This document shows, one piece after another, positions 32,763 through 60,055 of a stretch of DNA of 64,000 nucleotides (within the stretch, counting starts at the first letter, position 1; every line of letters begins with the position of its first letter). The notes under the pieces are model-generated. The model searched no databases. It was not told the origin of the DNA and was given only the letters and a program-made list of their open reading frames with translations. Source of the stretch: Halichondria panicea. Lineage: Eukaryota > Porifera > Demospongiae > Suberitida > Halichondriidae. Location of the stretch: assembly GCF_963675165.1 (NCBI RefSeq), contig NC_087392.1, forward strand, positions 5,207,942 through 5,271,941. The letters are read 5' to 3'. The position numbers and the translations under genes were made by a program.

Positions 32763-47199
<14,437 letters not shown>

Positions 47200-47671
47200 G
47201 GGGAGTTCTTCTATTATGAATCGACTGTTCTCTTGACAATACTTCTTAATGACAAGCTATCAAAACTTCCTTAGATCTCAATCATCTTAGGATGGTCCAA
47301 CTCTCTACACAGTGATTAGGGCGCTTGCTTGGTGTAGTACTATACTGTAGAGATACAATAGCTCTAGCTAGCTTTTGAGACAGCTAGCTATCTCAACACA
47401 GTTTTTGTCGCAACTTGAGTTAATTAATTATGTAGATTGTGGACCAGATAAGGGACATTCTCTGCATTGTTGCGGTCTGTGCCTAACCACCATGAAGCTA
47501 ATGCTAATCACATGCACAGCCCCGCCCCCCTCCTTTGATCCACTGTTTACCAGAAGCTGTGTAAAGCTAGCTAGCTAGCCTATTCTGCCAGTGAAAGCAA
47601 CGATAGAGACATCCCTAGAAGGAGCTACAGGTGAACAGTTGTACCCTGGGACTAGTTTGAAGGTATCAAGA
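47200..47671. promoter_or_regulatory. Shared divergent promoter region
   Basis: 472 bp between the start codon of the - strand ARHGAP20-like gene and the + strand aminopeptidase start. Both 5' UTRs and promoters must lie here or overlap their neighbours, unless upstream non-coding exons exist. No TATA box stands out. Confidence 0.55.
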
Positions 47672-55614
<7,943 letters not shown>

Positions 55615-57154: not shown

Positions 57155-57556
57155 GGTACTTACATGTAGCACCACACATCCTGTTAGTTTATACGTATAG
57201 CTACTATAGTGTACACGCAGTATTATTAAAAAACAATCTGGTGTATGGGAAGAAAAAAGCCGTTTGCTACTGCCTAATGAAAGACAGTAGGAACTCTATA
57301 ATTATTGTGATAATTATGCTTGTGTTGTTTTTTTTTGGTTTTTTATTCGCTGCAGGGGTGAACACGAATGATCCAATTACAATAACTATGTACGCTTCGC
57401 AATTTTGTAAACTAATTGATGTTAAAAGTAAAACCTATTTACATGGTGATCTTCGATATTACAATGTTGCAATTAAGGAACGAATAATTAGTGAGTGGTC
57501 ACGTACTTGGTAGTGATTGCAGAAAGATCAAGGAGGAGCGAGCTGGTAGCTGGTAA

Positions 57557-57840
57557 CCAAGCAACAATAATTATGATGGGTGTGGGGACAAGGCTAATTA
57601 ATGTACCAAGCAACAATATTATGATGGGTGTGGGGACAAGGCTAATTAATGTACCAAGCAACAATATTATGATGGGTGTGGGGACAAGGTTAATTAATGT
57701 ACCAAGCAACAACATTATGATGGGTGTGGGGACAAGGCTAATTAATGTACCAAGCAACAATATTATGATGGTGTGGGGACAAGGCTAATTAATGTACCAA
57801 GCAATATTATGATGGGTGTGGGGGCAAGGTTAATTAATGT
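57557..57840. repeat. Minisatellite of about 48 bp, six units
   Basis: Units contain CAAGCAACAATATTATGATG, GGTGTGGGGACAAGG and TAATTAATGTAC. The array ends about 60 bp beyond the SECIS element of the selenoprotein gene, in or after its 3' UTR. Confidence 0.95.
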
Positions 57841-57897
57841 CCCTAAATTAATTCACGATTATTGTACAGTTCAGAGCAATTTAACATCAGAGCAAAA

Positions 57898-57978
57898 GTT
57901 GACAAAAATAGAAACATCTGCACACACTCGTCTGCAGAACACAGATTGAGAGAGCATGCATCATACACCATTGCCAAC
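57898..57978 (-). promoter_or_regulatory. SECIS element (form 2)
   Basis: Read on the - strand, 38 nt after the stop codon. Lower stem: GTTGGCAATGGTGTA (57978-57964) with the strand ending TTTTTGTCAAC at 57898. Core: 5' ATGAT (57964-57960) opposite AGAT (57919-57916), giving the tandem G.A/A.G pairs of the SECIS quartet. Upper stem: GCATGCTCTC with GAGTGTGTGC (G.U pairs and one mismatch). The conserved AA is at 57947-57946, 12 nt above the quartet. An extra mini-stem TCTG/CAGA makes it form 2. All four hallmarks are present at standard spacing. Confidence 0.88.
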
Positions 57979-58015
57979 TTCAGCTATTAAAGTTGACACA
58001 GATTGCTCAAAGTTT

Positions 58016-58960
58016 TTAGGGCTTGTGTGCTTTGTTGACTTGCTCCAAACACTCCAATAGATTGGTAACGTCAGGACGATCGTACTGTTCCTTGCTTCTA
58101 TACATGTAGACAGCAGTTCCCTCTGAGTCGCTAATGAAGTCCCCTCCAATCACAGTGACGTCATCTCCTGGCCAGGCAAACCGATCGACCCTACCACCAA
58201 CCACAGCCTCAGCATAACCAATAAATACCTTGAGGTCCCAGGCCACGCTGACCAGTCGATGGAGTCCAATATGTCTGTACAACTGCAGGTCTTGATCCAA
58301 TAAAAGTGGGAGTGAGCAATCGTACTCTTTAAACCATCTCAGCCCCCCTTCCCGATTTCCACTAGCAACCACCACCACTTGACAGCCCAATTTGTTGAAA
58401 TCACCCAGCTGTGCTTCGACGGCTGCAATGTGATTGGTTCACGGGCGTCATACATAGTGTTTGCGGAGTATAAACAGCGTATAGGGTGTCTTCTCCACAC
58501 AGCTCTTCAGAGACACAGTGTCACCAGACTTAGTTTCAACGAGTGCTATATCCATTGGAAACTTCTCCCCGACATCAATTACATCCAAAGCCGTCTTTTC
58601 TTCGTATGACGTCATTTCTTGATCGAGCTCACTGATCAAACCGACCCATTTTTCCTCGGCGGCTAACAACTCTTCCACATTTTCTTGTACTTCAACATCA
58701 GAGAACATGCCAGCCCACAATGACTCCAACTCTCTCCTGCTCTTGACTCCAGCCGTTCGTAGACAGGCCACATAGAGGTTGACCGGGTAGACACACATCA
58801 AACCATGCGGATCATCTGATCCACGGGACTTGACAAAGTCGTTGATACTTGGAGATGCTTCTATTGCTTTGCGCCCGTCTTGCACCATGCTGCTAAGTCC
58901 TTTAGTTAGTGTCTGCACAGCTTGCAGCAGGCAGGATCTGAGCTCAGTGTCTGCAGACAT
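58016..58960 (-). CDS. SELENOL: Selenoprotein L-type peroxiredoxin-like protein with UxxU
   Basis: One exon, 945 nt, 314 aa, if two UGA codons (58450-58448 and 58441-58439) are read as selenocysteine at residues 171 and 174. The frame is unbroken on both sides: LFILRKHYV-U-RP-U-TNHIAAVEAQL. This is the redox-site strand and helix of the thioredoxin-fold AhpC/TSA-like (PRXL2/SelU-related) family, where the motif is CxxC; both Cys are replaced. Downstream GCQVVVVASGNREGG, CSLPLLLDQDLQLYRHIGL and IGGDFISDSEG fit the same fold. UxxU with a diselenide is the defining trait of selenoprotein L (established). Residues 1-140 are an N-terminal helical extension. A GT-AG intron removing both UGAs would be 31 nt and would break the frame. 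A SECIS lies in the 3' UTR. Likely a thiol/selenol oxidoreductase. Confidence 0.9.
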
Positions 58961-59140
58961 CTTTTAGTCCATTAGCTAGGTATAGGGTTGCATCACGGAG
59001 AAGTGATAATTACGCCTATGACCTTTGTCCCTTGTCGCGTTTGATCTTTGACCCTTGCTTCTTTCACATTGTGAATAAATTCTCTTCTTGCTATTAAATT
59101 CTAGCACTGTTTCTTGTACAAATAGAGCTACTATTGGGGC
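58961..59140. promoter_or_regulatory. Bidirectional promoter, selenoprotein / SAP18
   Basis: Only 180 bp separate the two start codons, which point away from each other. The interval must hold both 5' UTRs and both promoters. AATAAA at 59078 is on the + strand and probably chance. Confidence 0.7.
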
Positions 59141-60055
59141 ATGGCTGATCTTAGCCCTAGAGAGAGAAAGTCAAGGTCTCCAGTAAATACTGTGAGGAAG
59201 TCAAAATCTCCAGTAACTATGAGGAGGTCAAGATCTCCTGTAACTATGAGGCGGTCAAAATCTCCTGTAACTGCTGCGAGGAGGTCACGATCACCAGCAG
59301 CTCTGAGGAGGGAAGCCAGGAACAGCAACATAGACAAGGAACCACCTCCTTTGGTGGACAGAGAAAAGGTGACTATCCTACTCACAGACAAGCAGTCCGA
59401 TTCATTATCCCCCCTCATATCATGCAGACATGTCCTTTGCTATTGAGGGTGTTTTGCAACGTTGGGAGGCACCATCGCCCTGACGAGTTCACTAGACATA
59501 GAGTGCCCTCCAATGAGCTGCAGATATACACATGGTGAGTTGTGTGTACACATACGTTACATCTGAATGCTTTATAGTACACAAATGGCCGTTTAATTAT
59601 AATACCATTCTACAAACCCAGCTAAGCGCTTCTTTTTTGCTCGAATCGGCATACCTCAAGGTGACATATTTTCGCGAGTATTAATTAGAAATGCTATGAA
59701 TAACATTAATTTCATTACTAGGCTCTCGTTAATTTCTTGTACTAGAACAGCTCGGCCTGCCACGGTTCCACTCTCATGTATTGACCCCCCCCCCAGGCTT
59801 GATTGCAGTCTGAGGGAGCTGATGTCACTGATTAGAGAGGTCAACCCGGACACCCGGCCCAAGGGCACTCAGTTCTCCTTCTCCACTGTGTACCCTGACA
59901 TGCGTAGGGGGGGCTATCGACTCAAGGAACTAGGTAAGACGCTCTCTGGCAAGAGGGGAATGGATGATGATACGACTCTCTACTCCAGAAAGTTTAAGAT
60001 TGGGGACTTTGTTGATGTTGCTGTAATACCAAGGTCAAGGAACAGACCCTATTAA
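59141..60055 (+). CDS. SAP18: SAP18, Sin3/ASAP complex subunit, with SRSP-repeat N-tail
   Basis: Exons 59141-59368, 59428-59534, 59797-60055; 594 nt, 197 aa. Exon 1 encodes an arginine-serine rich tail with repeats of the form RRSRSPVTM / RKSKSPVT (about five) and ends DREK. Exons 2-3 encode the ubiquitin-like SAP18 fold: TCPLLLRVFCNVGRHH, PSNELQIYTW, LMSLIREVNPDTR, KGTQFSFSTVYPD, YRLKELGKTLSGKRG, FKIGDFVDVAVIP. SAP18 is part of the Sin3-HDAC corepressor and of ASAP/PSAP with RNPS1 and Acinus, linking to splicing and the exon junction complex (established). The human tail is short and has no SRSP repeats, so the tail here is a lineage feature. It shares a promoter region with the selenoprotein gene. 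Confidence 0.95.

Follow-up and report, generated by a model that had tools for sequence, protein, structure and literature searches.

A minus-strand locus in a 64-kb window of the Halichondria panicea genome is, with high confidence, an intact and apparently intronless gene for a selenoprotein L (SelL)-type redox protein, with both of its in-frame UGA codons read as selenocysteine (Sec). The window is the whole stretch of DNA analyzed (64,000 nucleotides), and all coordinates refer to it unless a contig of the genome is named. The reading frame contains two UGA codons and is followed by a SECIS hairpin, the gene is conserved in two paralogues, and genes for Sec synthesis are present in the same genome. 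Both UGAs would be decoded by Sec-tRNA with the aid of the one hairpin in the 3´ UTR, which would give the thioredoxin/AhpC-TSA-type domain a Sec-Arg-Pro-Sec motif at the position that CxxC occupies in ResA-type oxidoreductases. The product probably cycles between diselenide and diselenol as a thiol/selenol-disulfide oxidoreductase. Transcription of the gene is presumed, as is a substrate for its product. Reports of a diselenide in the redox motif exist for few proteins, SelL among them.

One reading frame with two in-frame UGA codons

The coding frame (58016–58960, minus strand) is a single exon of 314 codons plus a TAA stop codon at 58018–58016. From the ATG at 58960 to this stop, the frame contains no TAA or TAG and two TGA codons. 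This ATG is the first one past the preceding stop, because an in-frame TAA is located at 58966–58964. The two TGA codons start at 58450 and 58441, nine bases apart, and correspond to codon 171 (58448–58450), the first U of the URPU motif, and codon 174 (58439–58441), the second U. Codon 171 is also UGA in both paralogues, while the equivalent of codon 174 is UGA in the paralogue on contig C9 and TGC (Cys) in the paralogue on contig C15. The initial annotation had joined two minus-strand open reading frames (58960–58448 and 58390–58016) into one frame interrupted only by these UGAs. Both frames appear in the list of open reading frames, and they unite into the 314 codons with the two TGA as the only interruptions; translation across them bears out the proposed peptide HYV-U-RP-U-TNH.

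Automatic annotation was expected to break such a gene, and the list of open reading frames does show two short frames. Gene finders would cut the gene at the first UGA, and the correct reading therefore matters for annotation. That the UGAs are ordinary stops, leaving a pseudogene or two separate genes, is nevertheless very improbable, even though two short frames are what standard annotation would see. UGA is the only one of the three stop codons inside the frame and occurs only at the CxxC positions, the conserved domain goes on past the UGAs, and the UGAs are conserved in diverged paralogues with a SECIS-like hairpin behind each.

It is just as hard to credit an intron that takes out both UGAs. 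Candidate splice sites are plentiful: 191 in-frame GT/GC..AG pairs (40–400 nt) span both UGAs, 123 of which leave the frame open to the TAA (for example 58632–58423, GTGAGC..TTGCAG), and the C15 paralogue has an apparent single intron of 51 nt, though well upstream of the motif as judged by eye. Any such intron, however, would delete the redox motif along with residues conserved across the three paralogues, and the SECIS would then serve no purpose. Splicing out the 31-nt GTATGA..TTGCAG stretch that covers the motif would put the frame out of register.

Around the gene, a minimal upstream reading frame (ATG GAC TAA, 58964–58972, minus strand) lies in the frame of the main start and ends three bases before it. 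The gene and a plus-strand reading frame starting at ATG 59141 are arranged head to head; the two ATGs (58960 and 59141) are separated by 181 bp, and a shared promoter is therefore possible. Further on from ATG 59141, a plus-strand open reading frame with a SAP18 domain is located at 59696–60055. Elsewhere in the window, 47591–48859 encodes a Peptidase M1 N-terminal domain, and 32763–35501 the last part of a RhoGAP domain.

A form 2 SECIS element behind the stop codon

The 3´ UTR contains a form 2 SECIS (57892–57985, minus strand) that consists of helix I, an AUGA/AGAU core, helix II, an AA bulge and an apical mini-stem. The 5´ side of the core, AUGA, is located at 57961–57964 and the 3´ side, AGAU, at 57916–57919, both on the minus strand. 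The AA bulge follows AUGA after 13 nt, and the presence of the mini-stem corresponds to form 2. This shape is the unconstrained minimum-energy fold of the 3´ UTR. A form 2 SECIS with an ATGA/AGAT core about 38 nt past the TAA had been predicted initially; the element is present in the unconstrained fold and at the top of the window scan described below, and the predicted distance is close to the measured ones, which are about 34 nt for the main helix I and 51 nt for the core. The gene has a single eukaryotic SECIS in its 3´ UTR for both UGAs.

A fixed SECIS scan (A/G before TGA, AA/CC 9–13 nt on, GA opposite, and minimum pairs in both helices) was applied to both strands of the 64-kb window and returned 14 cores. 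The SECIS of the gene ranks first with −34.2 kcal/mol, compared with −18.7 kcal/mol for the next core, a lead of 15.5 kcal/mol, and the next best core on the minus strand (−18.1 kcal/mol) is 40 kb off. When the 300 nt after the TAA were dinucleotide-shuffled, 30 of 2000 shuffles gave any hit, the best of them −19.4 kcal/mol, and none of the 2000 reached −25 kcal/mol or below. The SECIS is far above background in both the scan and these shuffles. The fold itself has a z-score of −2.18 over 104 nt (equalled or bettered by 6 of 200 shuffles) and −3.24 over 98 nt (2 of 200). The Rfam model SECIS_1 was unreported at E ≤ 10 when 1.7 kb around the gene was scanned. A narrow scan of 146 nt gave its top match at 57907–57972 (26.5 bits, E = 0.0015, gathering score 35; model positions 1–64 of 64), which has to be weighed as a second and easier look after the 1.7-kb scan. 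Further downstream, about 50 bp from the SECIS, six 48-bp copies (95% matches) form a minisatellite at 57556–57840.

Two paralogues keep the motif in frame

A protein search of the genome returned four matches that represent three genes: the window gene and one paralogue each on contigs C9 and C15. The C9 paralogue (5962994–5963893) consists of a single open frame coding for 318 residues, with two TGA codons and the motif USPU. The C15 paralogue, which bears the motif UGPC, is covered by matches at 5547674–5548084 and 5548070–5548639; the second match holds one TGA and one TAA, and translation identifies this TAA as the stop codon of the gene itself. The window protein shares 36% and 35% identity with the C9 and C15 proteins, respectively, where the C9 protein was used with 317 of its 318 residues in the identity comparison and in the profile and plasmid searches, and the C15 identity and E-value are slightly off owing to the putative intron being read through (17 residues). 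For C9, 60 of 134 positions are identical after the motif versus 46 of 166 before it, and for C15, 53 of 134 versus 50 of 166. The N-terminal extension of the window protein matches C9 at 34 and C15 at 39 of 125 positions.

Frameshifts at the two UGA positions in relatives had been named initially as evidence against Sec. Within this genome the opposite was found, as both paralogues remain in frame, with Sec/Sec on C9 and Sec/Cys on C15. The proposed double-Sec reading is held up by the single frame, by UGAs that occur only at the redox positions, and by these two paralogues.

SECIS-like hairpins are located behind both paralogues. The C9 hairpin has a GUGA core and −27.8 kcal/mol in the scan, and it has letters around the AA in common with the window SECIS. 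Plain folding does not set it apart from shuffled sequence (z = −1.19; 26 of 200 shuffles did as well or better), and two Rfam scans reported no SECIS at this site. In the sponge Amphimedon, 12 of 21 SECIS elements, that of SelL among them, are described as having GUGA_AA cores (PMC3473315). The C15 hairpin (−31.3 kcal/mol), whose UUGA core lies about 50 nt beyond the stop codon, was obtained in a relaxed scan that was run after the strict one. Rfam SECIS_1 independently matches this site (31.4 bits, E = 0.013, below the gathering score), and none of 200 shuffles folds as well (z = −4.64). With the strict scan, no element was obtained downstream of the C15 gene or of a SelU-like gene on contig C3, so the scan cannot count as complete or as validated against known elements.

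It is likely that this lineage has expanded SelL to three genes, two with double Sec (URPU and USPU) and one with single Sec (UGPC), which share an N-terminal extension and have SECIS cores of AUGA, GUGA and UUGA, respectively. The newest element here is this three-gene set, in which UxxU occurs alongside UxxC. Paralogues of both forms in one genome offer a side-by-side test of why two Sec are kept. If the expansion is true, diselenide and selenenylsulfide would mark the two ends of a natural series built on one scaffold within a single genome.

Domain structure and family assignment

The window protein contains an N-terminal extension (about residues 1–128) and an AhpC/TSA-type domain (about residues 130–305; Pfam AhpC-TSA_2 and AhpC-TSA). 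AhpC-TSA covers residues 130–234 (E = 2.2e-10) and AhpC-TSA_2 covers residues 185–290 (E = 1e-10). The portion after the first UGA, when searched alone, still matches AhpC-TSA_2 (E = 1.7e-11), while the portion before it has no Pfam match at E ≤ 1. The N-terminal extension likewise has no match at E ≤ 1 in Pfam or NCBIfam; that of the C15 protein has two borderline NCBIfam hits (E = 0.023 and 0.054). In a sequence search of the structure database with the window protein, the best rows were CDL2.2, CDL2.3b and CDL2.3a, which cover about residues 27–93 and are not significant (E = 0.025–0.15). A single-sequence AlphaFold model draws the extension as helices with pLDDT below 50 almost throughout, and its mean pLDDT of 35.7 is too low for use.

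The closest NCBIfam model is NF040769, SelL-related redox protein (SelL_rel_redox), which matches the window protein over profile positions 8–173 of 173 with E = 8.5e-29 and 100.4 bits, below the cut-off of 120. The C9 protein reaches 119.2 bits (E = 1.4e-34) and the C15 protein E = 6e-21, so all three proteins stay under the curated cut-off. At E ≤ 1 the model also gives matches in 12 of 14 control genomes, over the cut-off in none. UxxU or its Sec/Cys variant occupies the CxxC position in all three (URPU in the window protein, USPU on C9 and UGPC on C15). The SelL-type assignment put forward in the initial annotation is upheld as a predicted membership that rests on the motif together with NF040769, a profile matched below its curated cut-off. 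The 173-position model is matched over the whole domain and lacks the N-terminal extension of the window protein.

With a three-sequence profile, the motif falls on the active-site CEPC of the thiol-disulfide oxidoreductase ResA (2h1b and 1st9; E = 0.014 and 0.016, respectively), a weak match at the edge of significance, and the window protein alone gives a non-significant E = 0.2. ResA differs in having Cys rather than Sec, and the match does not include the N-terminal extension. Typical peroxiredoxins (AhpC/Prx) have the peroxidatic motif PxxxTxxC; the window protein has HYVURPUTNH instead, and this identity was rejected. Peroxiredoxin-like genes with FVCPTE, TPVC and TPGC are present elsewhere in the genome.

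Scans of genome contigs and viral contigs yielded no confirmed bacterial or viral relative. No match was obtained by tblastn with the window protein against plasmids (E ≤ 0.01) or phages (E ≤ 0.1). The C9 protein against plasmids at E ≤ 5 gave 18 records, 17 of them annotated as peroxiredoxin-like, and the best (E = 0.3) is not significant.

Selenocysteine machinery and other selenoprotein genes

A search for tRNA-Sec returned nine matches, the best of which has 73.4 bits and the anticodon TCA; all four that were checked among the eight others are serine tRNA. SepSecS is represented by six exon matches on contig C2, in a search that also gives matches in 3 of 14 control genomes. SelD is represented by three exon matches on contig C7, each below the cut-off and at an E-value where all 14 controls give matches. 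The Sec-decoding machinery of the host is thus found in the form of tRNA-Sec, SepSecS and SelD matches. One SepSecS exon match (C2:523208–523357) contains a TGA inside the matched stretch.

Two SelU-like genes have UGA at the first motif position, RRFGUVMC on C3 and RRPGUPLC on C2, and are probably further selenoprotein genes of the SelU type, a name assigned from their motifs. The motif exon on C2 is presumed to be part of the matched SelU-like gene. A relaxed SECIS scan on the C3 gene gave no clear element. A COX1 fragment with two in-frame TGA codons (C1:5280527–5280718) is apparently mitochondrial DNA in the nuclear genome; its sequence looks non-bilaterian, apparently similar to COX1 of sponges or cnidarians.

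Comparison with known systems

The founding paper on selenoprotein L (SelL/SELENOL) is reportedly that of Shchedrina et al. in PNAS in 2007. SelL is described in aquatic animals with two Sec two residues apart (PMC2397514, PMC2874816, PMC3316567, PMC3473315), both of which are served by one SECIS (PMC3316567), and its reported range includes fish, invertebrates and marine bacteria (PMC2397514). The family had been called rare in the initial annotation and is less rare than this implies, since SelL is listed in five of six invertebrates (Amphimedon, Trichoplax, Nematostella, Capitella and Branchiostoma), with one gene each (PMC3473315). Genes of the same kind as the window gene have thus been reported before, in fish and in invertebrates, including a sponge (Amphimedon, PMC3473315).

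Like selenoprotein U/PRXL2, the window gene belongs to the Pfam family AhpC-TSA_2. The SelU-like genes of this genome, unlike it, are UxxC and have several exons. When NF040769 was compared exon by exon, which is indicative only, the window domain scored 86.6 bits, the C3 exons 35.7 and 19.4, and the C2 exon 19.1. A SelU/PRXL2 identity was rejected on the UxxU motif and on this higher NF040769 score.

A further possibility, which we regard as unlikely, is that the gene should be placed in the sponge 'Aq.AphC.like' family (Jiang et al., 2012) instead of SelL, or that the family and the trio are one and the same under different names. The family has three members in Amphimedon with Sec in an AhpC-like Trx domain (PMC3473315), and among 16 AhpC-TSA matches in the genome, inner stops are TGA alone only in the window, C9 and C15 genes, and the active-site Cys is present in all 9 inspected of the 13 others. 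However, the published account of Aq.AphC.like gives its genes 2, 2 and 5 coding exons, places two of them in tandem and uses the singular, 'the Sec residue' (PMC3473315), whereas the trio is spread over three contigs, two of its genes look single-exon and two have two UGAs. This comparison of exon structure and tandem arrangement relies on the published description of the family, and gene structure can differ between species. NF040769 fits the trio at E = 6e-21 to 1.4e-34, and the same authors counted Amphimedon SelL separately from Aq.AphC.like (PMC3473315).

The SelL-type reading remains the preferred one. In the open-licence literature on selenoprotein L and selenoproteins, no description was found of a genome in which three such paralogues combine UxxU and UxxC motifs. 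Like SelL, the window gene has two Sec two residues apart and one SECIS for both; unlike SelL of Amphimedon, for which one copy is listed (PMC3473315), it is one of three copies in its genome, and one of these is UxxC.
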